From Streptomyces sp. NBC_01707 (GTDB lineage: Bacteria; Actinomycetota; Actinomycetes; Streptomycetales; Streptomycetaceae): DNA of 64,000 nt. The notes below the pieces were generated by a model. That model worked only from the letters and a program-made list of their open reading frames with translations. It was not told where the DNA came from and did no database searches. The first letter of the stretch is position 1; every line of letters begins with the position of its first letter. Shown piece by piece: positions 3,463-25,758 of this stretch. Position numbers and translations under genes: made by a program. The stretch spans positions 4,526,001 through 4,590,000 of the forward strand of contig NZ_CP109190.1 in assembly GCF_041438805.1 (NCBI RefSeq), written 5' to 3'.

Positions 3463-3472
3463 CTCGTTCGTG

Positions 3473-3554
<82 letters not shown>

Positions 3555-4424: not shown

Positions 4425-4442
4425 TGAGGAGAGGGACCGGCC

Positions 4443-4952: not shown

Positions 4953-5012
4953 GGGGCCGCGTGCTGCATGGGTGTGCGCTGGGCGGCTGAGTACCGAATG
5001 GCGGTGTGCTGA

Positions 5013-5693: not shown

Positions 5694-5959
5694 CGTTCCC
5701 GTGAGTTCCCGAAGAGCAGCCGGTAGATGATGAGCAGCACCAGTGAGCCGCCGATGGCGGAGATCCACGTCGTGGTGTCGTAGAAGTCGTTGGATATCGG
5801 ACGGTCGAGGAAGTGCGACGATATCCAGCCGCCGATGAAGGCACCGATGATCCCGATGAGGGTGGTGCCGACCAGCCCGCCGGGGTCGCGACCCGGGAGC
5901 AGGACCTTGGCAATGGCTCCGGCCAGCAGTCCGAGAATGATCCAACCGATGATGCTCAT
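5687..5959 (-). CDS. GlsB/YeaQ/YmgE-family small membrane protein
   Basis: 90 residues from ATG 5957-5959 (MSIIGWIILGLLAGAIAKVL). Three hydrophobic helices with glycine-rich packing and the PGRDPGGLVGTTLIGIIGA signature place it in the transglycosylase-associated (GlsB/YeaQ/YmgE) family. These are stress-associated inner membrane proteins of unproved biochemical role. An ATG 16 codons upstream (6007) gives a charged extension not seen in the family, so it is rejected. The gene is convergent with alkB and overlaps its last codons. Confidence 0.88.
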   Translation of the reverse strand: MSIIGWIILGLLAGAIAKVLLPGRDPGGLVGTTLIGIIGAFIGGWISSHFLDRPISNDFYDTTTWISAIGGSLVLLIIYRLLFGNSRERH

Positions 5960-6058
5960 GTTGCCGAACCTACCCTTCGCCTGGTTGTGAAACCCAAGAC
6001 GTCTCACAGGCCTGCGTGGTTGCCGGTCGAGCAGAAAGAGCGGCAGGTCACAGCGGGC

Positions 6059-6403
6059 TCAGATGCGGGCGTTGTAGTCCGGCCAGGGTTGCAGTTCGGG
6101 TGCGTCGTCGTCGGGGTCCTCCCCGTACCAGCCGGTTCGGTCCAGCAGGGCGACGAGGGACTGCTGTCCGGAGAGGGTGGGTCCGCCGGTGAGCGGCCGC
6201 GGCCCGTGTCCCGGGCCGAGGCCGCCGTCGGTGATGCGGCTACGGAGGACGGTGGGCAGTGGCGGCGGGGAGTAACCGGGGACCGCTGTCGCACGGGTGA
6301 CGTCTTCGGTGGTGGGGACTGCGGGGAGCGGGCGCTTCTCCCCTCGCGGGGCGGTGTGCGCTGTCTTCTCGGCCGCTGTCGACAACTGCTCGGTGTCGTT
6401 CAT
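6059..6403 (-). CDS. Hypothetical proline-rich protein
   Basis: 114 residues, starting MNDTEQLSTAAEKTA. Composition is rich in Pro, Gly, Thr and Asp, with no predicted membrane span or known motif; the C-terminus has a small acidic patch, WYGEDPDDDAPELQPWPDYN. It is probably largely unstructured. It sits between the GlsB-like gene and yccF with no overlap, and its codon bias agrees with a real gene, but I do not recognise the family. Confidence 0.5.
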   Translation of the reverse strand: MNDTEQLSTAAEKTAHTAPRGEKRPLPAVPTTEDVTRATAVPGYSPPPLPTVLRSRITDGGLGPGHGPRPLTGGPTLSGQQSLVALLDRTGWYGEDPDDDAPELQPWPDYNARI

Positions 6404-6503
6404 GGGTTCATGGTGGACGACGGCACTGACAGTGGGCCGTTGACGGGCGACGAGGTGGTCCTCGGTGGCTGCGCCGCCTCGCTGTCCGGTCGTCCGACCC
6501 GCC

Positions 6504-6896
6504 TCAGCGTCCGGCGAACGGCTGGTCCGTACGGACGATTTCCTTGCCGAAGGGCATGAGGGAGACCGGGATCAGCTTGAAGTTGGCGATGCCGAGTGGG
6601 ATGCCGATGATCGTGAGGCAGAGGAGGATGCCGGTGGTGATGTGGCCGAGGGCGAGCCACCAGCCGGCGAGGATCAGCCAGAGGACGTTGCCCACGCAGG
6701 AGGGCGCACCGGCGTCGCGGCGGTCGACGACCGTGTAGCCGAAGGGCCAGAGGGCGTAGATGCCGATGCGGAAGGCGGCCAGGCCGAACGGGATTCCGAT
6801 GATGGTGATGCAGAGGAGGAGTCCGGCGGCTATGTAGGCGAGGAACATCCAGAAGCCGCACAGGACCAGCCATATGACGTTCAGGATTGTCTTCAC
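6504..6896 (-). CDS. YccF-domain membrane protein
   Basis: 130 residues, two copies of the YccF domain (residues about 1-55 and 65-125), each with a hydrophobic pair ending in [20 protein letters not shown] and a WPFGY/MPFGK-like segment. YccF proteins are small inner membrane proteins of unknown function. The GTG start (6894-6896) overlaps the stop of htpX as GTGA, so the two genes are translationally coupled and YccF may take part in membrane protein quality control; that link is inference from position only. Confidence 0.88.
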
Positions 6897-7756
6897 GGGC
6901 GATGACCTGCCATCTGCTCGAGTCGGGCGATGCGCTCTGCCATGGGCGGATGTGTCGAGAACATCTTGGACATCCCCTGGCCGGGGCGGAACGGGTTCGC
7001 GATCATCATGTGGCTCGCGGTCTCGATCTTCGGCTCGGGGGGCAGGGGGAGCTGTTTTGTACCTGCGTCCAGTTTGCGCAGGGCGCTGGCGAGGGCCAGG
7101 GGGTCACCGGTCAGCCGGGCGCCCGAGGCGTCTGCTTCGTACTCCCGTGAGCGGCTGACGGCGAGCTGGATGACGGAGGCGGCGAGCGGGCCCAGGATCA
7201 TGATCAGCAGCATGCCGAGGATGCCGGGGCCTTCGTCGTCGTTGGATCGGCCCACGGGGATCAGCCAGGCGAAGTTCACCAGGAACATGACGACCGAGGC
7301 AAGTGCTCCGGCGACGGATGAGATCAGGATGTCGCGGTTGTAGACATGGCTGAGCTCGTGTCCGAGGACGCCGCGCAGTTCGCGTTCGTCCAGGATCTGG
7401 AGGATGCCATCGGTGCAGCAGACTGCCGCGTTGCGCGGGTTGCGTCCGGTGGCGAATGCGTTGGGTGCCTGGGTCGGGGAGATGTAGAGCCGTGGCATGG
7501 GCTGCCGGGCTGCCGTGGAGAGTTCACGGACCATTCGGTACAGCTGTGGTGCTTCGAACTCGCTGACCGGGCGGGCCCGCATGGCCCTGAGCGCGAGCTT
7601 GTCGCTGTTCCAGTAGGCGTAGGCGTTGGTCCCTACTGCTACGACGAGCGCGACGACGAGGCCGGTACGTCCGAAGAAGCTGCCGATGACGATGATGAGT
7701 GCTGACAGACCCCCGAGGAGTACGGCGGTTCTCAGCCCGTTGTGCCGGCGGTGCAC
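6893..7756 (-). CDS. htpX: HtpX-family membrane zinc metalloprotease
   Basis: 287 residues from the GTG at 7754-7756, which has GGAGGG nine bases upstream; in-frame ATG 7837 would add an atypical 27-residue leader. The zinc motif HELSH (in [16 protein letters not shown]) and the downstream glutamate ligand in [16 protein letters not shown] are intact. Two N-terminal and two mid-protein transmembrane helices anchor it in the membrane with the catalytic domain inside. HtpX degrades misfolded membrane proteins. The C-terminal [14 protein letters not shown] stretch is typical. It leads the htpX-yccF pair. Confidence 0.93.
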
Positions 7757-7977
7757 GGTACGCCCTCCAAGTGGTGCAGCAGGGGAACCCTTTGCTGTGG
7801 TGCTCCACTCCCCAGTGGAGCCTCCTGTACTGGTCAACGCCAGGCGAGGAGAGCTAGTTCCCTTGTGCGCGCGGCCGGAGGGCGGGCCGTGTCCGGCGGC
7901 TTGTCCGGCTGTCGGGGCCGGAGCAGGCGTTGGGCCGTACGGGTGTCGGGGGTCGCTGCGGGGCAGCGCCGGGTGGG

Positions 7978-8439
7978 TCAGCGCTGGGCGGGGAGCTTGG
8001 CGAGCGCGAGGGCCTCGGGGTCGGGCTCGACCTCGCTGGTGCAGTGGGCGCAGCGGGACGCGATGGCGGGGATCTCGGTGTAGCAGCGAGGGCAGTCGCG
8101 CAGGGCGGCCTTGATGTCGACCTTCTGGTCCTTGCTGGGCGCGAAGCGGTTCTGGACCTTGGTCATCGGGACGACGACGCAGAAGTAGAGCACCGCGGCG
8201 GTGATCAGGAAGGCGATGGCGGCGGCGAGGAACTTTCCGTACGGGAAGATGGCGCCCTCGACGGAGAACTGGGCCGTGCTGAAGTCGCCGACGGAGCCGG
8301 TGGCGAGGCCGATCAGGGGGGTGATGAAGGCGGTGCTGAAGCCGGTGACGACTGCGGTGAACGCGGCTCCGACGGCGAGTCCGATCGCCATGGAGATGAC
8401 GTTTCCACGCAGGATGAAGTCCTTGAACCCGTTCAGCAC
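7978..8439 (-). CDS. mscL: Large-conductance mechanosensitive channel MscL with C-terminal cysteine tail
   Basis: 153 residues from GTG 8437-8439, with AGAGGAG just upstream; longer in-frame starts give an unlike-family leader. The N-terminus [20 protein letters not shown] and the first helix [20 protein letters not shown] are classical MscL pore sequences, and the second helix is [20 protein letters not shown]. The channel opens under membrane tension to release solutes in hypo-osmotic shock. The tail contains two CxxC pairs (CPRC and CAHC, spaced 10), resembling a zinc ribbon, in place of the usual short helical bundle end. Confidence 0.93.
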
Positions 8440-8468
8440 TGCTCTCGCTCCTCTTCGCTGTGTGCGTG

Positions 8469-8503
8469 TGTGTCGTACGTCTGTGTCGTACGTCTGTGTC
8501 GTT
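8469..8503. repeat. 13-bp tandem repeat upstream of mscL
   Basis: The unit TGTGTCGTACGTC occurs at 8469-8481 and 8482-8494, followed by a partial copy, TGTGTCGTT. It lies about 30 bases upstream of the mscL start, in the gap after the ten-gene nuo cluster, and may affect the mscL promoter or be a slippage product. Confidence 0.7.
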
Positions 8504-8569
8504 GTGCGGGCATGACCCTGCCCTGTCCGGTCCGCCCGGGGCAAGCCGATCTTGGACGGGGGCGTGCGG

Positions 8570-10132
8570 TCAGAAGAGGTTGACCGCGGCGAACCGCAGA
8601 ACGATCTGCGGGGCTCCGGAGAGCACGATGCCGACTGCGGCGGTCAGGGCGATCGCGGCGGCGAGGGAGACGGGTGCCGCTACAGGTGCGCCCAGCGGCT
8701 GGACCGCCATCGCCGGGCCGTCGGCCAGGGCCGGGGTGGCCGGCTCGGCCTCCTCCGGGGCGCGGAACAGCGCCGCCGTCCACTGCAGGTAGTAGTAGAG
8801 CGCGATCACGACGTTCACGGCCATCACGACGGCGAGCCAGCCGAGTCCCGCGTCCACGGCCGAGGAGAAGACCGTGACCTTGGCGAAGAGGCCGACGATG
8901 CCCGGCGGGAGGCCGGCCAGGCAGAGCAGGAAGAAGCCCATCGCGAGGGCGGTGAGGGGGCGGGTTGCGTACAGGCCCCGGTAGTCGGAAAGGCGGTTGT
9001 CCGGCTTCGCGCGGGCGACAAGGGCGGCCACGGCGAACGCGCCGAGGTTCACGACGGCGTACATGAGGGCGTACGCGACGGTGGAGCCGATCTGTTCGTC
9101 GCTGGAGTAGGCGGCGGAGGCGATCGGCACGAGGAGGTAGCCGGCCTGGGCGATGGACGACCAGGCGAGCAGGCGTACGGCGCTGCGGGCGCGGGTGGCG
9201 GTCTGGCGCAGGGCGGCGACGTTGCCGACGGTCATGGTCAGGGCGGCGACGACGGCGAGGGCCGGTCCCCAGACGTCGGCGTACGACGGGAACGCGATCA
9301 CGGTGACGAGGATCAGCCCGGAGAAGCCGACGGCCTTGCCGACGACCGACAGATAGGCGGCGACCGGCAGCGGGGCGCCGACGTAGGTGTCGGGGACCCA
9401 GAAGTGGAACGGTGCGGCTGCCGTCTTGAAGGCGAAGCCGACGAGGGTGAGGGCGACGCCCGCCTTGGCGAGGGTGGCGAACTGGTCGGGGACGTCGTGG
9501 AGGCGGGTGGCGAGTTCCGTGAGGTGGAGGGTGCCGGTCGTGGCGTAGACGAAGCTGACGCCGAGGAGCATCACTGCGGTCGCGACGACGGAGGAGAGGA
9601 AGAACTTGAGGGCCGCCTCGGAGGAGCGCCGGTCGTCGCGCTTGATGCCGACGAGGGCGAAGGCGGGCAGGGATGCGACTTCGAGGGCGACGACGAGGGT
9701 GGCGAGGTCGCGGGCGGCAGGCAGGAGTGCGGCGCCTGCCGCGGAGGACAGGAGCAGGAACCAGAATTCGCCGGCGGGGAGTCTGCGCATGTCGCCGAAG
9801 GAGAGCAGCGCGGTGAGCAGGGCGCCGCCGAGGACGAGGACCTGGATGATCAGGGCGAAGTGGTCGGCGGTGTAGCTGCAGGCTCCGGTGCCGGTCCCCG
9901 TGGTGAGGCAGAAGGTGGAGCGATTGCCGTCGCGCAGCGGGATGAGGAGGGCCAGGGCGGCGACGAGGGCGGCGATGCTCGCCAGGCCGAGGAGCGGTTT
10001 GCGTTCCTCGGGGAGGAAGAGGTCGGCGACCAGGATGATCAGGGCGACCGTCGCGACGACGACGGGGGGCGCGATGGCCAGCCAGTCGACGGACTGGACG
10101 AGGCTGGTGGTGCTGTCGGCCGCTGTGATCAC
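8570..10132 (-). CDS. nuoN: Complex I proton-pumping subunit N, incomplete nuo cluster
   Basis: 520 residues from GTG 10130-10132. An antiporter-like membrane subunit that helps couple quinone reduction to proton translocation. About 14 hydrophobic helices, with the family block GVAFTLVGFAFKTAAAPFHFW-like segment (LVGFAFKTAAAPFHFWVPD) that holds conserved lysine and histidine residues, and SSIAQAGYLL in the broken helix region. Its start overlaps the stop of nuoM as GTGA. Last gene of the cluster; no clear terminator hairpin follows before the repeat region upstream of mscL. Divergent in sequence from the nuoN at 46.7 kb, so not a recent duplicate. Confidence 0.92.
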   Translation of the reverse strand: MITAADSTTSLVQSVDWLAIAPPVVVATVALIILVADLFLPEERKPLLGLASIAALVAALALLIPLRDGNRSTFCLTTGTGTGACSYTADHFALIIQVLVLGGALLTALLSFGDMRRLPAGEFWFLLLSSAAGAALLPAARDLATLVVALEVASLPAFALVGIKRDDRRSSEAALKFFLSSVVATAVMLLGVSFVYATTGTLHLTELATRLHDVPDQFATLAKAGVALTLVGFAFKTAAAPFHFWVPDTYVGAPLPVAAYLSVVGKAVGFSGLILVTVIAFPSYADVWGPALAVVAALTMTVGNVAALRQTATRARSAVRLLAWSSIAQAGYLLVPIASAAYSSDEQIGSTVAYALMYAVVNLGAFAVAALVARAKPDNRLSDYRGLYATRPLTALAMGFFLLCLAGLPPGIVGLFAKVTVFSSAVDAGLGWLAVVMAVNVVIALYYYLQWTAALFRAPEEAEPATPALADGPAMAVQPLGAPVAAPVSLAAAIALTAAVGIVLSGAPQIVLRFAAVNLF

Positions 10133-11703
10133 GACTTGCCTCCTGCGAGGAGCTTCTGCACGGCCGGGTCGGTGAGGCCGAGGAGGACGGCGGGCCACAG
10201 GCCGGCGAGGACGGTGAGGGCGGCGAGCGGGGTCCAGGCGGCGAACTCGTACGTCTGGATGTCTGCGATCCGGTGCGGTTCCTCGCGCTTCTCGCCCATG
10301 CAGACGCGGCGTACCACGATGAGCATGTATGCGGCGGTGAGCAGGGTGCCGAACGCGCCGATCGACATGAAGGTGAGGAAGGCCGGGCGGCTGAGGCCCT
10401 GGGCCGGGTCGAAGGCGCCGAACAGGGTGAGCATCTCGCCCCAGAATCCGGCGAGCCCGGGCAGGCCGAGCGAGGCGACGGCGGCGAAGGCGAGGAGGCC
10501 GCCGAGGCGGGGGGCGCGGCCGTAGAGGGCGGCTCCGGTGGCACCGGAGAGGGTGTCGAGGTCGGCGGTGCCGTACCGGTCCTTGACGGCGCCGACCAGG
10601 AAGAACAGCAGGCCGGTGATGAGGCCGTGGGCGATATTGGCGAAGAGCGCGCCGTTGACGCCGGTGGGGGTCATGGTCGCGATGCCGAGGAGTACGAAGC
10701 CCATGTGGCCGACGGAGGAGTACGCGATCAGGCGCTTCAGGTCGCCCTTGGAACCGGGGCGGGCCAGCGCCAGGCAGGCGAGCGATCCGTAGATGATGCC
10801 GACGACTGCGAACGCGGCGAGGTACGGCGCGAAGGTGTGCATTCCGTCGGGGGTGATGGGCAGCAGGATGCGGACGAATCCGTACGTGCCCATTTTCAGC
10901 AGGACGCCTGCGAGGAGCACCGAGCCGACGGTCGGGGCGGCGGTGTGGGCGTCCGGCAGCCAGCTGTGCAGCGGCCACATCGGGGTCTTCACGGCGAGCC
11001 CGACGCCGATCGCGAGTACGGCGATGACCTGCACGGACGAGGTGAGCCCACGGCCGTTGTCAGTGGCGAGTGCCACCATGTCGAAGGTGCCGCTCTTCAG
11101 CCCGATGAGGAGCAGGCCCAGCAGCATGATCACGGAGCCGAGCAGCGTGTAGAGGATGAATTTCCAGGCGGCGGCCTGCCTCTGTGCGCCGCCCCAGCGG
11201 GCGATCAGGAAGTACATCGGGATGAGGACCATCTCGAACGCCAGGAAGAACAGCAGCAGGTCGAGGACGGCGAAGGTCGCGAGGGTGCCGGACTCGAGGA
11301 CGAGGACGAGTGCGACAAAGGCCTTCGGGGAGGGCCCGTCGGGCATCTTGAAGTAGCTGTAGAGCGCGCAGAGGAAGGTCAGCAGCGCCGTCAGTACGAG
11401 AAGGGGGAGCGAGATGCCGTCGATGCCGAGGTGGATACGGACGTCGAGCGCGGGGATCCAGCTGATGTCGGTGGTGGCCTGCATCTTCGACGGGTGGTCG
11501 TGGTCGAAGCCTAGGGCCAGCACGATCGCGGCGACGAGGATCGCGCCCGTGACGGTCACGCCGTGGCGGAGCACGGCCTGGTCGGGGTTCTTTCCCCGCA
11601 GCCCGGGCGGGGCCGGCAGGAGGGCGGCGACGGCGCCGACGAGCGGGCCCACGACGATGAACGCGAGAAGGAACTGCATCACGGATGCGCTGATATCGAT
11701 CAC
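10129..11703 (-). CDS. nuoM: Complex I proton-pumping subunit M, incomplete nuo cluster
   Basis: 524 residues from GTG 11701-11703; an internal ATG nine codons later is an alternative start. The conserved glutamate of the first channel is in LLFFLAFEMVLIPMYFLI, and the lysine-bearing segments AVKTPMWPLHSWLPDAHTAA and DLKRLIAYSSVGHMGF are intact, so proton translocation looks possible. The protein is an Mrp-antiporter-like membrane subunit. It follows nuoL by three bases and overlaps nuoN by four, consistent with one long transcript. Confidence 0.93.
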   Translation of the reverse strand: MIDISASVMQFLLAFIVVGPLVGAVAALLPAPPGLRGKNPDQAVLRHGVTVTGAILVAAIVLALGFDHDHPSKMQATTDISWIPALDVRIHLGIDGISLPLLVLTALLTFLCALYSYFKMPDGPSPKAFVALVLVLESGTLATFAVLDLLLFFLAFEMVLIPMYFLIARWGGAQRQAAAWKFILYTLLGSVIMLLGLLLIGLKSGTFDMVALATDNGRGLTSSVQVIAVLAIGVGLAVKTPMWPLHSWLPDAHTAAPTVGSVLLAGVLLKMGTYGFVRILLPITPDGMHTFAPYLAAFAVVGIIYGSLACLALARPGSKGDLKRLIAYSSVGHMGFVLLGIATMTPTGVNGALFANIAHGLITGLLFFLVGAVKDRYGTADLDTLSGATGAALYGRAPRLGGLLAFAAVASLGLPGLAGFWGEMLTLFGAFDPAQGLSRPAFLTFMSIGAFGTLLTAAYMLIVVRRVCMGEKREEPHRIADIQTYEFAAWTPLAALTVLAGLWPAVLLGLTDPAVQKLLAGGKS

Positions 11704-11706
11704 GGC

Positions 11707-13707
11707 TCACGACCCGGCGTTGACGGTGGCAAAGACGACGGCGGCGATCGCCAGGACAAGGGAACCGGCGAGCAGTGCGCTGAGGTAGGTCTGCACATTG
11801 CCGGTCTGGGCGCGGCGGACGGCGGTGCCGAGCAGGCGTGCCCCGGTGCCGGAGCCGCGTACGTACGTGTCGACGACCTCGCGGTCCAGGAAGCGGACGA
11901 GGCTCGCCGCGGCCTGGACGGGGCGGACGAACAGTTTCGTGTAGAGGGCGTCCAGGTGGAAGCCGGTGGCGGCGTGGCGGTGCAGCGGGCCGAGCAGCAG
12001 ACGGCCCGGGTCGGCCGGGTCGGGGGCGCCCGGGGTGTCGCCGTAGCCGGCGGTGTGATGGGTCATGGCCTCGGCCTCGACGAGTGCGGGTTCGGCGTCG
12101 GGGTGGGCGACGACGGCGCCGACGGGGACGCGGGTGGCGAGGGCCGCGGTGTGGCGCCAGGCGGCGTAGGTGACGAGGCCGCCGACGAGGGCGACGCCTG
12201 TGGAGAGGACGGCGGTGGTCACGGTCGGGGTGAGGCTGTGGCCGTCGAACCAGTCGGTGATCACGCCGACGGTCAGTCCGAAGGCGATGGTGGGGACGGC
12301 CAGGACCCAGAGGACGGCGGTCATCGCGACGGGCTGCCTGCCGTGGTCGGGGACCTCGGCGCCGCGGCCACGGAAGGCGAGGAGCCAGAGGCGGGTGGCG
12401 TACGCGGCAGTGAGGACGGCGGCGAGCAGTCCGGCGACGAGGACGGTCCACCCGGCGGCGGCCGGGGCGACGTGCCGGTCGCCGAGCGCGGTGTGTTCGG
12501 CGGCGACGAGGACGGCTTCCTTGGAGAAGAAGCCGGCGAACGGCGGGATGGCGGCGAGCGCGAGGAGGGCGACGGTCATCGTCCAGTAGGCGTCCGGGAT
12601 GCGCTTGGCCAGTCCGCCCATGCGGGACATGGCGGCCAGTGAGTTGGTCCCGGCGGCGTGGATGACGACGCCCGCCGCGAGGAAGAGGACGGCCTTGAAC
12701 GCGCCGTGCGAGATGAGGTGGAAGACCGCGGCCCCGCGGTCGCCGACGGCCAGTGCACCGGACATGTAGCCGAGCTGGCCGATCGTCGAGTACGCGAGGA
12801 CGCGTTTGATGTCGTCCTGGGCGAGTGCTGCGAGGCCTGAGCCGATCATCGTGACCGCCGCCATCACGGCGAGGACGACGAGGGCGGCGCCGGATTCCGC
12901 GAAGACGGGGAGGAGCCGGGCCACGAAGTAGATGCCGGCGGCGACCATCGTCGCGGCGTGGATCAGCGCGGAGACGGGGGTCGGGCCCGCCATCGCGTCG
13001 GGCAGCCAGGTGTGGAGGGGGAACTGGGCGGACTTGCCGGCGACGCCTGCGAGGAGCAGCAGGGCGATGACGGTGGGGTGGTCCAGGCCGCCGTTGGCGA
13101 CGGCGCCGAGGATGCCGGTGATCCGGAAGGTGCCGGTGTCGGCGGCGAGCGCGAACAGGCCGATCAGGAAGGGGACGTCGCCGAGCTTGGTGACCAGGAA
13201 GGCCTTGAGGGAGGCGGCACGCGCTTCGGGTGTCTCCCAGTAGTGGCCGACGAGGAAGTACGAGCAGATGCCCATGATCTCCCAGCCGACCATCAGCACC
13301 ATCAGGTCGCCGGAGTAGACGACGAGCAGCATCGCGGCGGTGAACAGGGAGACGAGGGCCGCGTACGAGGGGTAGCGGGGGTCGTCGCGCAGGTAGCCGG
13401 TCGAGTAGATCTGCACGCAGGTCGCGACGAGCCCGACCAGGACGGCGACGAGGACCGCGAAGCCGTCGAGGTGGAGGGCGAGGTCGATCGGGACCGAGCC
13501 GGTGGGGGTGAGCCGGGTCGCGGCGTCGATGGCCGGGCCGCCACCCTGGCGTGCGGCGACCACGACGGCGAGTACGGCCGCGACGAGGGTGGGGAGGACG
13601 GCGAGGGGGCGTACGTAGCCGGGGGCGGTACGGCCGAGGAGCAGGCCGGCCACTGCGCCGAGGAACGGGAGGAGGGGGACGAGGACGGCGAGGGTCGTGG
13701 TGGTCAC
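11707..13707 (-). CDS. nuoL: Complex I proton-pumping subunit L, incomplete nuo cluster
   Basis: 666 residues from GTG 13705-13707, which overlaps the nuoK stop as GTGA. The longest antiporter-like subunit; the conserved blocks are [38 protein letters not shown] and [16 protein letters not shown], followed by [19 protein letters not shown] long C-terminal region would include the lateral helix and anchoring helix that brace the membrane arm. Ion-path lysine and histidine residues in the motifs above are present. The 3' end lies three bases from nuoM. Confidence 0.93.
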
Positions 13708-14099
13708 GCGGTGGCCTCTGCCTTCTTTGCCTTCCCTGCCGGAGCAGTGGCCTGGTCTTCGGTGCTGTCGCCGGGGAGGGCTTCGGCGGCGTCGGTTTCG
13801 GCGGTGTCGCGGAGGCGGTCGACGTCCGAGCTGCCTCGGTTGCGGTAGACGGCGAGGACGATGGCCAGGCCGATGCCGATCTCCGCCGCCGCGATGGCGA
13901 TGGTGAAGAGGGTGAGGGCCTGGCCGGAGTGCAGGGCGTCGCGGAGCCAGACGTCGAAGGCGACCAGGTTGAGGTTGACGGCGTTGAGCATCAGCTCGAC
14001 GGACATCAGGACCAGGATCGCGTTGCGGCGTGCGAGGACTCCGTACAGCCCGGTGCAGAAGAGGAGGGCGGCGAGCACGGCGGGATAGGCGAGGTGCAT
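13704..14099 (-). CDS. nuoK: Complex I membrane subunit K, incomplete nuo cluster
   Basis: 131 residues, three transmembrane helices. The conserved glutamates in the membrane lie in [19 protein letters not shown] and [20 protein letters not shown]. It is longer than the usual 100 residues because of a charged, Ala/Asp-rich tail ending [10 protein letters not shown]. The ATG start shares one base with the nuoJ stop (TGATG), and its own stop overlaps nuoL. Confidence 0.93.
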
Positions 14100-14659
14100 C
14101 AGCTCTGCTCCTTACTGCGCTTGCGGGACAGGACGATCGCGCCGACGAGGGCGGCGAGCAGCAGGACGGAGAGTGCTTCGAAGGGCAGGACCCAGTGCCG
14201 GAAGAGGAAGGCTCCGGTCGCCTCGGTGGACCCGTGGGCCGGTCCGTCCAGGTCGATCCAGGTGGTGCGGAAGGCGTCGACGACGACCCAGACGAGGGCC
14301 GCCGCGGCGGCGACCGCCACACCGAGGGCCGCCCAGCGGTTGCCGGAGTCGGCGTCCGGGGAGCGGCCGATGGGGGCCTTGGTGAGCATCAGCCCGAAGA
14401 GAAGGAGGACGACGACGGAACCGACGTAGATCAGCACCTGCACCCAGGCGATGAACTCGGCGGTGAGCAGGAGGTACTCGACGGCGAGGCCGCCGAGCGC
14501 GACGACCAGCCAGAGAGCGGCGTGGACCAACTGCTTGGTCGTGACGGTGATGAGGGCCGCTCCGAGGGTGGCGATGCCGACCAGGACGAAGGCGATCTCG
14601 ATGCCGGTCGGGGAGAGGAAGCCGGGGTGGGCCGTGGCCGCGGTGGCTGCGAGTGTCAC
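14099..14659 (-). CDS. nuoJ: Complex I membrane subunit J, incomplete nuo cluster
   Basis: 186 residues from GTG 14657-14659, overlapping the nuoI stop by four bases. Five hydrophobic helices; the conserved segment [20 protein letters not shown] and the pi-bulge region [11 protein letters not shown] are clear. NuoJ takes part in the conformational coupling between the quinone site and the proton channels. Upstream in-frame sequence belongs to nuoI in another frame, so longer starts are rejected. Confidence 0.92.
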
Positions 14660-15258
14660 TCCTCTCCCTCTTCCTCTTCGTGGGCCTGCTGGGACGGCTG
14701 GGCGGCTTCCTTGACCTGCTCGGCCTCTTGGGCGCGCTGGGCTTCGAGTTTCTCCGCCGTCTTGCGGGCGGCGGCGATCTCCTTCGGGTCCTCCGCGCCC
14801 GGGTCGAGCGCGGGCGGTTCGGGAACCGTCCACATCCATTCGCGGAGCTTGTCCCGCTCATGGGTGAGGTCGTGGATGTCCGTCTCCGCGTACTCGAACT
14901 CCGGCGACCAGAACAGCGCGTCGAAGGGACAGACCTCGATGCAGATGCCGCAGTACATGCAGAGCGAGAAGTCGATCGCGAAGCGGTCCAGGACGTTGCG
15001 GCTGCGCTCGCGTCCGCCCGGGGCGGCTGCGGGCACCGTCTCCTTGTGGGAGTCGATGTAGATGCACCAGTCCGGGCACTCACGGGCGCACAGCATGCAG
15101 ACCGTGCAGTTCTCCTCGAACAGCCCGATGACACCGCGGGAGCGGGGCGGGAGTTCGGGCTGGACGTCCGGGTACTGCGCGGTGACCGTCTTCTTCGTCA
15201 TCGTCCGCAGGGTGACGGCCAGGCCCTTGGCCAGGCCTGAGCCGGGGATCGGAGGCAT
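14656..15258 (-). CDS. nuoI: Complex I ferredoxin-like subunit I (two 4Fe-4S clusters), incomplete nuo cluster
   Basis: 200 residues from ATG 15256-15258, sharing one base with the nuoH stop (TAATG). Two cluster-binding motifs are complete: [12 protein letters not shown] and [12 protein letters not shown]. These carry clusters N6a and N6b, which pass electrons toward NuoB. The C-terminal 60 residues are a Glu/Gln/Ala-rich helix ([19 protein letters not shown]) ending in an acidic run, longer than standard. Since NuoE, F and G are absent from this cluster, NuoI would be the likely docking place for an electron donor such as ferredoxin; that is inference. Confidence 0.93.
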
Positions 15259-16226
15259 TAGTTGATCGCCACCTTCACGATGCCGGTGAGCGCGATCTGC
15301 GCGAGGGCGAGCGGGATGAGTGTGGTCCAGGCGAGCTTCTGCAGCTGGTCCTCGCGGAGGCGGGGGTAGCTCACCCGCAGCCAGATGACGACGAAGGCGA
15401 GGACCGCGGTCTTGAGGAGTGTCCAGACCCAGCCGAGTCCGTCGGCGCCGAGCGGGCCGTGCCAGCCGCCGAGGAAGAGGACGGTGGTCAGTCCGCAGAG
15501 GACGACGATGCCTGCGTACTCGGCGAGCAGGAACAGTGCGAACCGCAGACCGGTGTACTCGGTGTACGCCCCGAAGATGATCTCCGAGTCGGCGACCGGC
15601 ATGTCGAACGGCGGTCGCTGCAGTTCGGCGAGTCCGGCCACGAAGAAGACCAGGCCGCCGACGATCTGCCAGGGCAGCCACCACCACTCGAAGGCATTTA
15701 CGATGCCGGGGAGGGAGACGGTGCCGGCCGCCATCGCGACGGACGCCGCGGCGAGCAGCATCGGCAGTTCGTACGCGAGGAGCTGGGCGGCGGTGCGCAG
15801 GCCGCCGAGGAGGGAGAACTTGTTCGCCGATGCCCAGCCGGCCATCAGCGAGCCGAGCACGCCCACGCCCATGACGGCGAGCACGAAGAAGATGCCCGCG
15901 TCGACCACCTGGCCGACCGCGCCCTCACTCGGGCCGATCGGGATGGCGACGAGCACCAGGAGGTACGGGAGGAGGGCGACGGCCGGCGCGAGCTGGAAGA
16001 TACGCCGGTCGGCCTCGGCCGGGACGATGTCTTCCTTCTGGGCGAACTTCACACCGTCGGCGACGAGCTGGGCCCAGCCGTGGAAGCCACCCGCGTACAT
16101 GGGGCCGAGGCGGCCCTGCATGTGGGCCATCACCTTGTGCTCGGTCTGGCCCACGACGAGTGGGACGACCATGAACACCCCGAAGACGATGATGAGCCGG
16201 AGGGCGACGTCGAGTACGTCGTTCAC
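15258..16226 (-). CDS. nuoH: Complex I membrane subunit H (quinone-site heel), incomplete nuo cluster
   Basis: 322 residues from GTG 16224-16226, overlapping the nuoC stop by four bases. Eight or so transmembrane helices. Conserved family segments include [36 protein letters not shown] and [17 protein letters not shown], which line the quinone chamber and the E-channel. It lacks the long proline-rich tail of the nuoH in the other operon (474 residues). Confidence 0.93.
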
Positions 16227-17581
16227 GCGGTATCGCCTCCGGCGGGGGGGTTGGGGGTCGGCTCGGGTGCGGGGTCAGGGTTCGGGGTGTCGGGCTGCGC
16301 CGGGGGCTCCGGCTCGTCCGAGGTGCCGGGCCGCGCCGGAGGCTCGGGCTCGTCCGAGGTGTCGGGCCGTGCCGGAGGCTCGGGCTCGTCCGAGGCGTCC
16401 GGGGTGTCGGTGGCGGGGCCGCTGCGCGGGGCCTCTTCCCTGCCCGCCTCTTCCCGGACCGGGGGCTCCGCCCCGGGTCCCTCGCTCCTCGAGCGCCGGA
16501 GGGGCTGAGAGGTGCCCGGCTCCTGCGCGGTGCCCGGCTCCTGGGATGTGCCGAGGGGCTGGGAGACACCCGGCTCCTCGGTCCTGCCGACGGTCCGGGA
16601 GGAGTCCTCTTCCTGGGTCTCGTCGAAGGCCGGGCGGGCGTTGTGCCAGGGCGCGTCCGTGCTACGGGGGGCCGGTGCGGGTTCCGCAGGCGCCGGTGCG
16701 GGTTCCGCAGGCGCCGGTGCCGATTGCGTCGCTGCCGGTTCCGTCGCGGCCGGTTCCGTCGCTCCCCGCTGGGGCGCCGCCGTCTCCCCCAGCTGGCTCG
16801 CCGAGCCCTGGGACGCACTGCGGGTGCGGCGCGGGGGCGCGGTCGGGGGTGTCGTCTCCGTGCTCGCGGCGGGCGCCGCCGCCTCCGGCTGCTGGCTCGC
16901 CGAGCCGTCGCTCACGCTGCGGGCGCGGCGCACCGGACGCTCGCCCGCGGCCCTGGGGGTGCGGGCCGGGCGGGTCGGGGCGGGTGGGAGCTGGCCCTTG
17001 AGGGGGCCCCATTCGTTCGGGTCGGGGACGCCCGGCGGCAGCATCGTGCGCCGCTTCGGGCCGCCGTGTTCGGATTCGCCCGGCTCCTTGGCGCCCGGCC
17101 AGGCCTTGGCGACCCGGGCCGCCAGCACGAAGTCCTTGCGCAGCGGGTGCCCCTCGAAGCCTTCCGGCAGCAGCAGCGGCACCAGATGCGGGTGGCCTTC
17201 GAAGCCGATGCCGAACATCTCGTGCGTCTCGCGCTCGTGCCAGGCCGCGCCCGAGTAGACGCCGACGGCCGTGGGAAGGACGGCGGCGTCGTGCGGGACG
17301 GTCGTACGGATCAGGAGTCGGCGGACCTTGCCGTGCGCCGGGGCGGCGACGTGGGCACAGACACGGAAGCCGGTGCCCGGTTCGTCGACGGCGCTCAGCC
17401 AGTCGAAGTAGGTGCAGCCCAGCCGGTCGCGGGCCGTTTCGAGGGCGGCGATCCAGGCGGCGGCCGGGACGTCGACGGTCAGCAGGTCGTAGGCGTGCTC
17501 CGCCGTGGCGTCCTCGCCGAAGAGTTCGGTGACGGCGTCCGGCAGGCTGTCGTACGCGTCGGCGGCGGGAGTGCTGGTCAC
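16223..17581 (-). CDS. nuoC: Complex I subunit C with a very long repetitive tail, incomplete nuo cluster
   Basis: 452 residues from GTG 17579-17581. Residues 1-160 are a normal 30-kDa (NuoC) subunit, with the signature [18 protein letters not shown] followed by [15 protein letters not shown]. From about residue 195 the protein turns into a 250-residue low-complexity tail rich in Pro, Glu, Ala, Ser and Thr, with tandem motifs [12 protein letters not shown] (three copies near the end), PAPAE and GTSQEP. It is about twice the usual length and is likely disordered. The domain normally contacts NuoD, which this cluster does not encode. The start overlaps the nuoB stop as GTGA. Confidence 0.9.
16287..16394. 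repeat. Three 36-bp tandem repeats inside the nuoC tail
   Basis: Units at 16287-16322, 16323-16358 and 16359-16394 are near-identical and encode [12 protein letters not shown]. Other short repeats lie nearby in the same gene, for instance a 21-bp unit repeated twice around 16676-16718 (PAPAEPA). The length of the tail may therefore vary between strains by slippage. Confidence 0.8.
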
Positions 17582-18210
17582 TTACGGTCCTCCCCCGGTG
17601 CGGGCGGCGCGGCGACAAGGCCGCTGCGCAGTGCGGCCGTGGAGGGCCGGCTGCCGCCGCCCGTCGCGTACCGCTCACCCAGCGACTCGCGGGCGATCTT
17701 CTCCTGCAGCTTGAGAATGCCCTGGAGCAGGGCCTCCGGCCGGGGCGGGCAGCCCGGTACGTAGACGTCGACGGGGATGATCTGGTCGACGCCCTTCGTC
17801 ACGGAGTACGAGTCCCAGTAGGGGCCGCCGCAGTTCGAGCAGGCGCCGAAGGAGATGACGTACTTGGGCTCCGGCATCTGCTCGTACAGCCGCTTGACGG
17901 CCGGAGCCATCTTGTCCGTCACCGTGCCGGAAACGATCATGAGGTCGGCCTGGCGGGGGCCGGGGGCGAACGGGATCACGCCGAGCCGGATGAAGTCGTG
18001 CCGGGCCATGGACGCGGCGATGAATTCGATGGCGCAGCAGGCGAGGCCGAAGTTGAAGACCCAGAGGCTGTAGCGGCGCCCCCAGTTGAGGACCACCTTC
18101 ATCGGCTCCGGTGCGAGCCGGGACAGCACGCCGAGCCGTTTCGGCTCCGGCAGCAGTGTCGTTTCGGGCCGGGGCTGCGGCTCGGGGGTCTGCGGGCTCG
18201 TCACGTCCAT
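17578..18210 (-). CDS. nuoB: Complex I subunit B (cluster N2), incomplete nuo cluster
   Basis: 210 residues from ATG 18208-18210; it overlaps the nuoA stop by ten bases. It carries the N2 4Fe-4S cluster that reduces quinone: the cysteine ligands are in [20 protein letters not shown] and [11 protein letters not shown], all present. The middle loop reads [14 protein letters not shown] instead of the [13 protein letters not shown] of the second nuoB, so this is a distinct subfamily, of the kind also seen in ferredoxin-linked and group 4 hydrogenase-like complexes. The C-terminal extension ([14 protein letters not shown]) is unique to this copy. Confidence 0.93.
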
Positions 18211-18611
18211 TCGAGGACGCCCTTCTTCCATGCGTAGAGCAGTCCCACGGCCAGGAAACCGAGGAAGATGAACATTTCCACCAGCGTCGTCGCGCCGTAT
18301 CCGGGCGCGGCGAATACGGTCGCCCATGGAAACAGGAAGATCGAGTCGACGGCGAAGATCACGTACAAAAAGGCATAGACGTAATAACGGACCTGGGTAT
18401 GTGCCCATCCTTCACCCACGGGGTCCACGCCGCACTCGTACGTGAGGAGTTTTTCCGGTGTCGGTACCACGGGGCGCAGCAGTCGTCCGGCCCCGAAGGC
18501 CACGGCCACGAACAGCACGCCGATCAGTGCGAGCAGTCCGACCACCGAGTAGCTGTCGAAGTAGTCCGACGCGAGAACGGTCGATCCTGGCAGGTCCGCC
18601 ACGTAGGCCAC
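18201..18611 (-). CDS. nuoA: Complex I membrane subunit A, incomplete nuo cluster
   Basis: 136 residues from GTG 18609-18611, with a GGAGGGG ribosome binding site upstream. Three transmembrane helices; the conserved loop [20 protein letters not shown] and the helix [15 protein letters not shown] are clear. First gene of the ten-gene cluster A-B-C-H-I-J-K-L-M-N. The region upstream (18612-18781) is shared with the divergent sensor kinase; a possible -10 element TAGACT lies at about 18652-18657 on the minus strand with only a weak -35. The two may be co-regulated. Confidence 0.93.
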
Positions 18612-18781: not shown

Positions 18782-19999
18782 ATGACCATGAGCCCCCCGG
18801 TGCCCGACGACGACCGGCTGCCGCCCGCCCGCTTCGCCCTCGATCCGTGGACGTGGAAGGAGATCTCCTATCTCCTGTCCAACCTGCCGATGGCGCTCGC
18901 CGGGTTTGTTTACACAGTGTTCATGATCGGTGTCGGTGTGGGGCTTTCGGTCACGGTGATCGGTCTGCCGCTGCTGGCCGCCGGGCTGCAGGGGGCGCGG
19001 CTGCTCGGCCGGGCGGAGCGGGGCCGGGCCCGGGGGCTGCTCGGGATACGGATCGACGAGCCGAGCTCGGTGGCACTGACCCGTCACGACCAGGGCTTCT
19101 TTCCGTGGCTGTGGTCGAGCCTCAAGGATCCGGTGGGCTGGCGCGCGGTGCTGTACTCGTTCATCCGCCTGCCCTGGGGCGTGCTCACGTTCACGGTGAC
19201 GCTTGTGAGCCTGTTCGTTCTGTGGCCCGTGCTGCCCTTCACCGCGCGTCTGCTCACCAACGCGGACCGGGCGATGGCGCGCGGGCTGCTCTCGCCGTCG
19301 GACGAGCTGGAGCGCCGGATCGCCGAGCTGGAGTCGGACCGCGGGGTGGTCGTGGACACGGCCGCCGCGGACCTGCGACGCATCGAGCGCGATCTGCACG
19401 ACGGCGCCCAGGCCCGCCTCGTCGCCCTGGCGATGGGCCTGGGTCTGGCGAAGGAGAAGCTCACCGAGGACCCCGAGGCGGCCGCCCGCATGGTCGACGA
19501 GGCACACGGCGAAGTGAAGGTCGCCCTCCAGGAACTCCGCGACCTCGCCCGCGGCATCCACCCCGCCGTCCTCACCGACCGCGGCCTGGACGCCGCACTC
19601 TCCGCCATCGCCTCCCGCTGCACCGTCCCCGTGCGGGTGGGGGTGGACCTGCCGGGGCGTCCGGCGGAGGCGATCGAGGGCATCGCGTACTTCACCGTCT
19701 CCGAGCTGCTGCAGAACGTGAGCAAACACAGCGGGGCGCGCTCGGCGTCCGTCGAGGTCTGGCGGTCGGCGGAGCGGCTGCTGATCCGGGTCAGCGACGA
19801 CGGCCGGGGTGGGGCGCGGATGGACGGCGGTACGGGGATGTCGGGGCTGGCGGAGCGGCTGGGAGCGGTCGACGGGCTGTTCGTCCTGGACTCGCCGGTC
19901 GGCGGGCCGACGACGGTCACCGCGGAGCTGCCCTGGCGGGACCGCGACCAGGGGCGGGACCGGGGTCGGGACGGCGCGGGCGCCGCAGAACGCCATTAG
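18782..19999 (+). CDS. Two-component sensor histidine kinase (paralogue 1)
   Basis: 405 residues from ATG 18782. N-terminal 'Putative sensor' domain (PF13796 type) with hydrophobic hairpins around residues 30-75 and 120-165 in the membrane. The HisKA_3 helix contains the phosphoacceptor His in IERDLHDGAQARLV, and the HATPase_c domain has ELLQNVSKH (N box), DDGRGGA and GMSGLAERL (G boxes). No extracellular ligand-binding domain is seen. A 305-bp internal tract covering the HisKA_3 region is almost identical to the next gene. Likely phosphorylates the LuxR-type regulator at 21.8 kb. The ATG at 18737 would lengthen it by 15 residues. Confidence 0.92.
   Translation: MTMSPPVPDDDRLPPARFALDPWTWKEISYLLSNLPMALAGFVYTVFMIGVGVGLSVTVIGLPLLAAGLQGARLLGRAERGRARGLLGIRIDEPSSVALTRHDQGFFPWLWSSLKDPVGWRAVLYSFIRLPWGVLTFTVTLVSLFVLWPVLPFTARLLTNADRAMARGLLSPSDELERRIAELESDRGVVVDTAAADLRRIERDLHDGAQARLVALAMGLGLAKEKLTEDPEAAARMVDEAHGEVKVALQELRDLARGIHPAVLTDRGLDAALSAIASRCTVPVRVGVDLPGRPAEAIEGIAYFTVSELLQNVSKHSGARSASVEVWRSAERLLIRVSDDGRGGARMDGGTGMSGLAERLGAVDGLFVLDSPVGGPTTVTAELPWRDRDQGRDRGRDGAGAAERH
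19325..19629. repeat. 305-bp near-identical tract, copy 1 (within kinase 1)
   Basis: Matches 20906-21210 with 3 differences in 305 positions (GCG/GTG and GGC/GAT). It covers the HisKA_3 dimerisation and phosphotransfer region. The flanking sequences of the two genes are clearly diverged, and the tract uses C-ending codons more than its flanks. Best explained by recent gene conversion between the paralogues. Confidence 0.93.
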
Positions 20000-20010
20000 C
20001 CGCAGCGCCT

Positions 20011-20050
20011 AAGGGACAGCCCTTGGGCCGGGGGTGGGGAAAACCCCCGG
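20011..20050. promoter_or_regulatory. Two adjacent dyads between the kinase genes
   Basis: AAGGG-ACAG-CCCTT at 20011-20024 and CCGGGGG-N9-CCCCCGG at 20028-20050. The second is GC-rich with a hairpin potential that could end the first kinase transcript; the first resembles an operator half-site pair. The GGGTGGGG core at 20032-20039 is shared with the dyad upstream of kinase 1. Confidence 0.4.
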
Positions 20051-20170
20051 TCGAAGAGGGATACCGGCCTCATGGTGCCTCGTCCCGCAGAACAGCACCC
20101 TTGATGTGTCAGCCGCTGTACGGGCTGGACCGGACAAGACCACCGCCGAAAGAAGAAACGGACGGCACCC

Positions 20171-21526
20171 ATGGCCACGGCATACGGACCGGACACTCGG
20201 GACCATCAGCGGTCCGGTGCCGGCTCCGGGGACAACCCCCCGGTGAAGCACTTCTTCCCGGCGGTGCTGCGCGCGCCGCTGGAGGCGAGGACCTGGCGCG
20301 AGTTCGGCTATCTGCTGCTGAGTCTGCCGATCAGCGTGGTGCTCTTCAGCTTCGCGATCACCATGACGTCGCTGGGCGCGGGCCTGCTGATCACCTTTCT
20401 CGGCATCCCGGTCCTCGCCCTCGGTCTGGCGATGTGCCGAGGCTTCGGCGTGATGGAGCGGGCCCGGGCGCGGGGGCTGCTGAAGCTGCAGGTGGCGGAG
20501 CCGGCTCCGGTGCGCGGCAGGACGGGCGGCCTGATGTCGTGGGTGGGGGCGGTCCTGAAGAGCGGGGTGTCCTGGCGGCATCTGCTCTACGCGCTGCTGC
20601 ACTTCCCGTGGGCGGTCTTCGCCTTCACCGTGTCGTTGACGTTCTGGGCGTACGGGTGGGCGGCGTTCAGCTACCCGCTGTGGCAGTGGGTGTTCCCTGC
20701 GTACGCGGGGGTCGACGGCATTCAGCTGTACGGCGACGCCACGCACGACATCTATCTCGACTCGCCGTTCGAGCTGGCCGCGACCAGCGCGTTCGGTCTG
20801 GCACTCGTCCTCCTCACCCCGTGGATCATCCGCGGTCTGGCGTCCGTGGACCGGGTGATGGTCTACGGGCTGCTCGGGCCGTCGCGGCTGGCGTCTCGCG
20901 TCGTCGAGCTGGAGTCGGACCGTGGGGTGGTCGTGGACACGGCCGCCGCGGACCTGCGACGCATCGAGCGCGATCTGCACGACGGCGCCCAGGCCCGCCT
21001 CGTCGCCCTGGCGATGGATCTGGGTCTGGCGAAGGAGAAGCTCACCGAGGACCCCGAGGCGGCCGCCCGCATGGTCGACGAGGCACACGGCGAAGTGAAG
21101 GTCGCCCTCCAGGAACTCCGCGACCTCGCCCGCGGCATCCACCCCGCCGTCCTCACCGACCGCGGCCTGGACGCCGCACTCTCCGCCATCGCCTCCCGCT
21201 GCACCGTCCCGGTGACGGTCGAGGTGGATCTGGCGTCCCGGCCCGCGCAGGCCATCGAGGGCATCGCCTACTTCACCGTGTCCGAACTGCTGCAGAACGT
21301 CAGCAAGCACGCGCGGGCGACGCGCGCGACGGTCGACGTGTGGCGTACGGCCGACCGGCTGCTGCTCCAGGTCACCGACAACGGGCGGGGCGGCGCGAAT
21401 CTGTCGGCGGGCAGCGGCCTCGCCGGTCTGGCCGAGCGGCTGGACGCGGTCGACGGTGTCCTTGTCGTCGATTCCCCGGAAGGCGGCCCGACGAGGATCA
21501 CGGCCGAGCTCCCCTGGCGTGGCTGA
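20171..21526 (+). CDS. Two-component sensor histidine kinase (paralogue 2)
   Basis: 451 residues from ATG 20171. Same architecture as the upstream kinase: a 'Putative sensor' membrane region with helices at about residues 45-90 and 140-225, HisKA_3 with IERDLHDGAQARLVAL, then HATPase_c with SELLQNVSKHARA, DNGRGGA and GLAGLAERL. It is about 45 residues longer, in the membrane part. The extra segment (WVFPAYAGVDGIQLYGDATH) lies between helices and could face outside, perhaps as a sensing loop. Heterodimer formation with paralogue 1 is plausible because the dimerisation helices are nearly identical. Confidence 0.92.
   Translation: MATAYGPDTRDHQRSGAGSGDNPPVKHFFPAVLRAPLEARTWREFGYLLLSLPISVVLFSFAITMTSLGAGLLITFLGIPVLALGLAMCRGFGVMERARARGLLKLQVAEPAPVRGRTGGLMSWVGAVLKSGVSWRHLLYALLHFPWAVFAFTVSLTFWAYGWAAFSYPLWQWVFPAYAGVDGIQLYGDATHDIYLDSPFELAATSAFGLALVLLTPWIIRGLASVDRVMVYGLLGPSRLASRVVELESDRGVVVDTAAADLRRIERDLHDGAQARLVALAMDLGLAKEKLTEDPEAAARMVDEAHGEVKVALQELRDLARGIHPAVLTDRGLDAALSAIASRCTVPVTVEVDLASRPAQAIEGIAYFTVSELLQNVSKHARATRATVDVWRTADRLLLQVTDNGRGGANLSAGSGLAGLAERLDAVDGVLVVDSPEGGPTRITAELPWRG
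20906..21210. repeat. 305-bp near-identical tract, copy 2 (within kinase 2)
   Basis: Second copy of the tract described for 19325-19629, in the same frame and direction, 1,581 bases apart. The direct orientation would also allow deletion of the intervening DNA and fusion of the two kinases by recombination. Confidence 0.93.
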
Positions 21527-21620
21527 GGCGGAGCACCTCGCGGAGGCCTCGTCACACCCGAACATTGTCGCGCAACACATCTCGCACAGCACATCCATAC
21601 GCAGGTACGAATCGTCGTGC

Positions 21621-21645
21621 GGCGCCCGGATCCCGTCCGGGCGCC
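21621..21645 (+). terminator. Hairpin after kinase 2
   Basis: Perfect 10-bp inverted repeat GGCGCCCGGA / TCCGGGCGCC with a five-base loop, about 95 bases after the kinase stop and 135 before the regulator start. No T-tract follows, which is common for Streptomyces terminators. Confidence 0.6.
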
Positions 21646-21780
21646 TCCGTCGCGTCCCCCGCCGGCACACAAACGTCCGTCACAGCTCCCGTCCGCGGAC
21701 CGATGCTGGGATGCTGGGGGCACGAGGGACGGATCGGGTCGCGGTGGAGCCGACGGACAGCAACAGGGGGACAGGGCGTC

Positions 21781-24686: not shown

Positions 24687-25758
<1,072 letters not shown>

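Follow-up and report, generated by a model that had tools for sequence, protein, structure and literature searches.

The stretch of DNA analysed here, referred to as the window, is a 64,000-nucleotide piece of the genome of Streptomyces sp. NBC_01707. On its minus strand, at positions 8570-18611, it carries ten genes for subunits of respiratory complex I in the order nuoA-B-C-H-I-J-K-L-M-N, and this cluster, nuo2, is the subject of the present work. An earlier sequence-only reading of the same DNA had described a cluster in tight overlap from which nuoD to nuoG are missing as a block. Pfam confirms this description, all ten products lying above the gathering score, and NCBIfam agrees in kind for the ten open reading frames (ORFs), many of its models scoring below their own cut-offs. 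Neighbouring genes overlap by 1-10 bases, with the exception of nuoL and nuoM, which are 3 bases apart. No match to the D, E, F or G families was found among the ten ORFs, and there is no further gene-like ORF inside the cluster; elsewhere in the source genome the NuoF domain has two further matches. The window also holds a canonical 14-gene operon, nuoA1-N1, whose products are designated set 1; those of the ten-gene cluster and its relatives, with the NuoD2 described below, are designated set 2. The genes of the cluster are the following.

18201-18611, minus strand: nuoA2, 136 aa; PF00507, E=1.8e-32
17578-18210, minus strand: nuoB2, 210 aa, start picked by GC3 (GC content at third codon positions); PF01058, E=7e-29; N2 cysteines C58, C59, C124 and C154; loop GGPYWDSY; Thr96 at the site of T. 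thermophilus Nqo6 Arg83
16223-17581, minus strand: nuoC2, 452 aa; PF00329, E=5.8e-32, over residues 36-156
15258-16226, minus strand: nuoH2, 322 aa; PF00146, E=1e-99; used in the H tree
14656-15258, minus strand: nuoI2, 200 aa; PF00037 and NCBIfam NuoI models, scored on the longer ORF 14656-15687; two 4Fe-4S motifs; an N-terminal stretch that is retained only where the membrane genes are
14099-14659, minus strand: nuoJ2, 186 aa; PF00499, E=6.1e-36 (scored on a longer ORF)
13704-14099, minus strand: nuoK2, 131 aa; PF00420, E=1.6e-29; Glu35 and Glu73 retained
11707-13707, minus strand: nuoL2, 666 aa; PF00361 and PF00662 (scored on a longer ORF)
10129-11703, minus strand: nuoM2, 524 aa; TIGR01972, E=7.2e-167
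8570-10132, minus strand: nuoN2, 520 aa; TIGR01770, E=1.6e-95, slightly under its cut-off (scored on a longer ORF)

The differing middle loop of NuoB and the extra tail of NuoC to which the sequence-only reading drew attention are both present. All four N2 cysteines are found in 84/84 NuoB2 sequences, and the loop after the third of them reads Pro-Tyr-Trp in the same 84, whereas canonical actinobacterial NuoB has Met, Phe and a gap at these positions (17/17); the loop is a family signature. In NuoI2, 9 or 10 cysteines lie across the two-cluster stretch in all rows read. The C-terminal part of NuoC2 is a low-complexity tail rich in Pro, Ala and Glu, about 290 residues long, beyond the Pfam domain. 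Measured from a motif, and hence approximately, such tails span 166-394 residues in 9 Streptomyces loci versus 41-147 in 12 other ten-gene loci, so that the long tail is a Streptomyces-type expansion, possibly with a docking or regulatory role. In Streptomyces it varies in length and contains repeated arginine-serine stretches. That the 452-residue NuoC2 might be a disguised NuoD was ruled out, PF00329 being the sole family matched.

A distant nuoD2 and the N2 arginine

The NuoD family has two matches in the whole source genome, NuoD1 of the 14-gene operon and a second one at C1:5644288-5645037, 1.1 Mb away from the ten-gene cluster. The genes concerned are listed here.

G000:C1:5644285-5645427, minus strand: nuoD2, 380 aa, full-length; PF00346, E=1.7e-70
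46675-62683 of the window, minus strand: canonical nuoA1-N1, 14 genes by ORF prediction, the comparison set
59722-61044 of the window, minus strand: gene for NuoD1, inside the 14-gene operon
61751-62305 of the window, minus strand: gene for NuoB1, inside the 14-gene operon

A nuoD2 lying apart from the Streptomyces nuo2 operon has already been named in print (PMC3765725, PMC8388888), and a 2022 paper described nuo2 as devoid of NuoCDEFG and L, with an unclear function and perhaps as part of a hybrid machinery (PMC9239103). A [NiFe] hydrogenase of the Ech or Mbh type was considered and rejected: NuoD2 has no CxxC in its sequence, so the nickel-binding pairs are absent, and its PF00374 score of 20 bits is under the cut-off of 25.8. 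In one genome (G028, locus L057, positions 2924-10251) nuoD2 stands directly upstream of an operon that gives the impression of an Mrp-type antiporter, probably by chance.

The gene adjoining nuoD2 belongs to the PF02636 family (59.7 bits against a cut-off of 23.3). No chain was found when its product was searched as a single sequence against solved structures; a 13-row profile did match the solved NDUFAF7 homologue 5ztz (E=2.5e-15) and, better still, two uncharacterised chains, 4f3n and 1zkd. By these matches the gene is of the MidA/NDUFAF7 methyltransferase type. NDUFAF7 methylates Arg85 of NDUFS2, the mitochondrial NuoD (PMC3829151), and by analogy the MidA-type enzyme probably methylates the NuoD2 protein.

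The distribution of these genes was followed by searching 246 genomes of the class, 221 of which are classed as good, with NuoD2, NuoH2, NuoB2, KorB and PF02636; the presence lists were compiled by hand with E-value and coverage thresholds that we set. NuoD2 was found in 99 genomes (including two partial matches, G021 and G097) and NuoH2 in 61. Both occur in 22/22 genomes of the same genus, the source genome included, in line with the remark in the sequence-only reading that other Streptomyces have a similar cluster. That reading had held that a separate nuoD-like gene always accompanying the set would speak against its idea of a shared NuoD. Such a gene does accompany it, in 50/50 good NuoH2 genomes (NuoH2 without NuoD2, 0/50); overall 2/61 NuoH2 genomes are devoid of NuoD2, both of them metagenome-assembled genomes, 72% and 80% complete. 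Decay of the set in Streptomyces, a possibility that had also been raised, is not supported either: dN/dS is 0.05-0.51 over the set-2 genes in three pairs, the highest value being that of NuoK2. MidA tracks NuoD2 across the 246 genomes (both in 86, NuoD2 only in 13, MidA only in 5, neither in 142). It lies within 1.5 kb of nuoD2 in 20/22 same-genus loci and, more widely, within the fetched flank of up to about 10 kb in 25/30 NuoD2 loci, the others being L067, L074, L075, L077 and L079.

The arginine next to cluster N2 provides a signature by which NuoB and NuoD can be paired. In Yarrowia, Arg121 of NuoD (human Arg85) adjoins N2, and its replacement by Met or Lys abolishes both quinone reduction and the N2 signal; in T. 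thermophilus this NuoD site is a Thr, and an arginine of NuoB (Nqo6 Arg83) occupies the same space (PMC8042128). We fixed both sites by alignment to the T. thermophilus chains, on which residue numbers were counted. Set 1 has Arg in NuoB and Thr in NuoD, and set 2 has the reverse. At the NuoD site, Arg is present in 87/87 NuoD2 and in 9/9 sequences from other phyla, and Thr in 7/7 actinobacterial NuoD1; at the NuoB site, Thr is present in 84/84 NuoB2 and Arg in 17/17 NuoB1. Among 63 NuoB/NuoD pairs listed, 61 were readable: 25 are R/T, 35 T/R, one R/R and none T/T. The 59 distinct co-located pairs, many of them near relatives, leave out the window's duplicate set 1 and its non-adjacent set-2 pair and comprise 24 R/T, 34 T/R, one R/R and no T/T. 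Since NuoB2 and NuoD1 both have Thr, a NuoB2-NuoD1 hybrid would be T/T, with no N2 arginine. As an observation on set 1 itself, its operons (L044, L178, L180, L183, L199 and others) share the arrangement of T. thermophilus, unlike nearly all other phyla read.

The 11-gene operon and the pump-less relatives

Named genomes were scanned with the NuoB2 alignment, and 80 of the loci were kept. At least 11 of them (L150-L158, L160, L162) contain a complete A2-B2-C2-D2-H2-I2-J2-K2-L2-M2-N2 operon, with D2 between C2 and H2, and L161 and L163-L165 contain cut-off copies. The holders are Acidimicrobiia, Ilumatobacter, Candidatus Actinomarina and other deep Actinomycetota records. E, F and G are absent from the 11-gene operons read, as they are from the cluster. 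In L153 and L156 the midA gene comes directly after N2, and in L153, L158, L160 and L165 set-1 genes lie directly upstream. In Fodinicola (L133) both MidA and D2, the latter read in two pieces, adjoin the ten genes, an arrangement that looks like an intermediate.

Quick trees, with support from the SH-like approximate likelihood-ratio test (SH-aLRT) alone, were built on rows that we chose: 20 of about 59 genomes with NuoH2 and NuoD2, 12 operon rows, 16 others and 37 genomes termed pump-less, in which NuoD2 and a second NuoB are present and NuoH2 was not found by whole-genome search (37/246). L241 (G190, no second NuoB) was left out, short rows were dropped from the H tree and from the charged-residue comparison given below, and branches among pump-less rows are long. 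In the D tree (85 rows) NuoD2 is one clade (support 100); the operon rows are basal in it, and all 57 rows with a separated NuoD2 group together further in (100). The H tree (56 rows) unites the ten-gene rows (100) with the operon rows (99) and places them away from set 1. The I tree, built on 70 rows and weak in many branches, likewise sets apart set 1 and the other phyla (99). The topologies of the three trees indicate that the remote nuoD2 and the nuoH2 of the cluster share one history. On the sequences compared, the set-2 subunits belong together in evolution and are distinct from those of the 14-gene operon.

In 33 of the 37 pump-less genomes B2, C2 and I2 are arranged as a tight triplet: less than 200 bases separate C from I, and the stretch read contains no membrane gene of set 2. 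The triplets (for instance L083-L086, L088, L204-L206 and L211-L215) are flanked by korAB or nuoN1 and by htpX/yajQ, and nuoD2 lies elsewhere in the genomes sampled; the named records L148, L159 and L166 have the triplet as well. Beside one intact-looking triplet (G194, L223) degraded korA/korB pieces are seen at 4145-4497. In G161, C2 and I2 are parted by 4.2 kb of unrelated minus-strand genes, and G016 and G229 are cut by contig ends. G030 (L080) retains A2 and, between C2 and I2, a nuoH2 remnant at 10804-11301 (165 codons between stops), which we read as membrane-arm loss under way. On the D tree the membrane state needs three changes, one for G161 with G016, one for G030 and one for a clade of 34.

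The N-terminal stretch of NuoI, ending in YP, follows the membrane genes: 26/26 full or operon rows have it (3 were recognised by eye), as does the remnant L080; it is absent in 35/35 pump-less rows, named records included, and L082 lacks its helical part. The loss of this stretch favours a pump-less module free in the cytosol rather than docked on the canonical arm. The N2 cysteines are retained in 40/40 pump-less NuoB2, and dN/dS of pump-less D2, B2, C2 and I2 is 0.03-0.34 in five pairs (one value undefined), a sign of purifying selection; we take both to mean that genomes devoid of the pump still maintain the electron wire. By a single MAFFT alignment, the quinone-site His is missing in 6/37, all pump-less. 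Set 2 may in many Actinomycetota have been reduced to a soluble four-subunit NuoB-C-D-I electron wire with a NuoD pocket and no pump, NADH module or NuoI membrane stretch. Such a module would represent a new type of enzyme, probably an oxidoreductase that depends on ferredoxin and acts on a substrate in solution or bound to a surface, and it would have arisen from complex I through about three independent losses; we consider the chances of this proposal to be evenly balanced.

The proposed enzyme and its alternatives

The ten products and a dedicated NuoD2 would, with high probability, make up an 11-subunit complex I with no NADH module, a respiratory proton pump of an old type. A low-potential carrier, most likely ferredoxin, would deliver electrons to the two [4Fe-4S] clusters of NuoI2, from which they would pass to N2 in NuoB2; menaquinone would be reduced in a pocket formed by NuoB2, NuoD2 and NuoH2, in which the usual tyrosine is a tryptophan, and this reduction would drive proton transfer through H2, K2, L2, M2 and N2. 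The arginine of the NuoD2 HRG motif, next to N2, would be methylated by MidA, in parallel with the action of NDUFAF7 on human complex I.

The quinone pocket and the ion path depart from the usual pattern. The position of the quinone-site tyrosine is Trp in 87/87 NuoD2 and Tyr in 16/16 other NuoD; it corresponds to Tyr87 of T. thermophilus Nqo4, the tyrosine known for quinone binding (see also PMC8042128). The residue at the D139 site was dropped as a set-2 marker because actinobacterial NuoD1 also has Glu there. The sequence-only reading had judged the membrane ion-path residues to be intact. We scored charged residues that are invariant in set 1 and the other phyla, counting as retained those present in at least 90% of set-2 rows; on this measure the ion path is largely but not completely intact, with 3/4 retained in NuoK, 16/26 in NuoL, 13/16 in NuoM, 5/13 in NuoN, 20/25 in NuoH and 2/4 in NuoA. 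The window's own copies retain some of the residues counted as lost. Of two conserved glutamates, NuoH2 of the ten-gene type has one replaced by Val or Ile and the other mostly by Asp, and in NuoA2 Ala and Asp replace Asp and Glu, the originals being retained in the 11-gene operons. The lysines and glutamates of K2, L2, M2 and N2 that lie on the usual proton path are largely retained.

Several points weigh against such an enzyme. The tryptophan and the altered acidic residues of NuoH2 and NuoA2 leave normal quinone reduction and coupling in doubt, and the assembly of NuoD2 with the cluster products is something that we infer. The PF02636 search gave no match in 13/99 NuoD2 genomes, including one (G128) in which a MidA-like neighbour escaped it. 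In 40 genomes NuoD2 is present and NuoH2 is not, so that the ten-gene form is not its only user; in 35 of these B2, C2 and I2 stand in one read stretch. Of the rest, G016, G229 and G070 are truncated where their contigs end, and a second NuoB is absent from G190 and was not found in G097. Two further points concern the 2-oxoacid:ferredoxin oxidoreductase genes next to the cluster:

22896-24686, plus strand: korA, 2-oxoacid:acceptor (ferredoxin) oxidoreductase alpha; TIGR03710, E=6.8e-190
24679-25758, plus strand: korB, 2-oxoacid:ferredoxin oxidoreductase beta; TIGR02177, E=1.3e-72, under its cut-off

No korA lies within 2.5 kb of nuoB2 in 13/37 pump-less genomes, one more (G194) having degraded pieces only, and korAB occurs in the same neighbourhood in 12/12 control loci with no B2. 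These controls, all chosen for KorB, have korAB with htpX and/or yajQ within about 8 kb, and nuoN1 is in view in 9/12.

The absence of E, F and G from the cluster supports the expectation of the sequence-only reading that there is no NADH module and that the donor is of the ferredoxin type or another one. Ferredoxin is the likeliest donor, and the neighbouring KorAB is a plausible and possible source of its reduced form; for 11-subunit enzymes in general the donor is unknown (PMC11238625). A KorAB working as the dedicated donor of the 11-subunit enzyme, in place of the general ferredoxin pool, is conceivable, and we give it a minor share of the probability. The gene korA is a divergent neighbour of set 2 in many relatives and lies divergently within 2.5 kb of nuoB2 in 23/37 pump-less genomes (a hand count, G093 being deduced from korB), and it is not known what mycobacterial KorAB reduces physiologically (PMC2773412). 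Set against this are KorB matches in 197/246 genomes versus NuoD2 in 99, and the 11-gene operons, where no korAB is seen in the 0.1-10 kb of upstream flank fetched. We lowered the weight of this alternative because korAB is kept in all 12 controls and korA is not close by in 13 of the 37 pump-less genomes.

The sequence-only reading had suggested that the quinone site is completed by another protein, perhaps the NuoD of the 14-gene operon. Such a shared module, in which the ten products use NuoD1, or NuoD1-E-F-G, in a hybrid complex I, would account for the loss of D to G as one block and for the presence of both operons inside the same 64 kb, and a hybrid machinery has been suggested in print (PMC9239103). 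We consider it very improbable: a nuoD2 of its own exists and co-occurs with the set, in deep relatives the whole set, D2 included, is a single operon, and the Thr of NuoB2 calls for an Arg in NuoD. The T/T combination of NuoB2 with NuoD1, seen in 0/59 pairs, would lack the N2-stabilising arginine whose replacement is so damaging in Yarrowia (PMC8042128). An exchange of single subunits, NuoL2 and NuoM2 serving as alternative antiporter subunits of the canonical complex in the manner of the cyanobacterial NDH-1 isoforms, has been proposed for Streptomyces, where a conserved antisense RNA is reported opposite nuoM2-nuoL2 (here 10129-13707) in three Streptomyces (PMC3765725). It accounts neither for the complete 11-gene operons nor for the fact that B2, C2, D2 and I2, which carry an N2 signature of their own, are retained together, and appears just as improbable. 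The least probable alternative is an F420H2 dehydrogenase of the Fpo type. Fpo is also devoid of E, F and G, and NuoD2 scores 312 bits with the FpoD model; this is far under the model's cut-off of 600 bits, and PF04432, the FrhB-type C-terminal domain, has no match anywhere in the source genome.

Neighbouring genes and known systems

Besides korAB, the genes around the cluster are these.

18782-22455, plus strand: two sensor kinases and a response regulator, divergent from nuoA2; Pfam Sensor and HisKA_3
6893-7756, minus strand: htpX; NF002839, E=1.2e-151; a frequent downstream neighbour of set 2

By their position the kinases and the regulator are of the AbrC1/C2/C3 type of S. coelicolor (PMC9739823). 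Downstream of the cluster come mscL and htpX and, further on, yajQ. An ORF at 1445-2302 gives the impression of an IS3-type transposase.

The 11-subunit complex I as a kind and the existence of nuo2 and nuoD2 are already known. The Streptomyces nuo2 and nuoD2 of PMC3765725 and PMC8388888 most likely are the same gene set, by content and neighbours; the relevant passages of these papers do not include nuoC2, midA, the 11-gene operon, the Arg/Thr switch, the tryptophan or the pump-less forms. The midA link, the actinobacterial 11-gene operon, the Arg/Thr argument for this pair, the tryptophan and the pump-less forms were not found in the literature covered, which includes few subscription journals, and nothing on Actinobacteria was found in the part consulted of PMC4859585, a review-type paper on complex I.

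With these results a partial cluster of antibiotic-producing bacteria becomes a definite enzyme with a testable subunit list, and a possible donor, KorAB with ferredoxin, is placed near a member of a class whose donor is unknown. One and the same cell offers a natural experiment on which subunit gives the N2 arginine, on the effect of its methylation and on what a tryptophan at the quinone-tyrosine site allows. The pump-less B-C-D-I forms, if real, would mean that complex I has an electron-transfer core able to persist by itself.

Three known systems invite comparison. The canonical actinobacterial complex I, set 1, has homologous A-D and H-N subunits in the same genome; it differs from set 2 in having E, F and G, in combining a NuoB Arg with a NuoD Thr and in keeping the quinone tyrosine, and it branches apart in the D and H trees. 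The closest solved chain to NuoB1 is 8e9g_B. Mitochondrial NDUFS2-NDUFS7 with NDUFAF7 resembles set 2 in three respects, namely the arginine of the NuoD HRG motif, the threonine of NuoB and the presence of a MidA/NDUFAF7-family methyltransferase (PMC3829151, PMC8042128); unlike mitochondrial complex I, set 2 is a bacterial 11-subunit set with Trp at the quinone tyrosine, and its methylation is predicted. The 11-subunit enzyme of Desulfitobacterium hafniense, likened here by description and not by sequence, has the same subunit list once nuoD2 is counted and is likewise devoid of an NADH module, its donor being unknown and ferredoxin having been proposed (PMC11238625). Set 2 differs from it in that nuoD2 is unlinked and, in ten-gene genomes, usually near midA, and also in the Trp at the quinone tyrosine, the GGPYWDSY loop, the altered acidic residues of NuoH2 and NuoA2, and the occurrence of pump-less forms.

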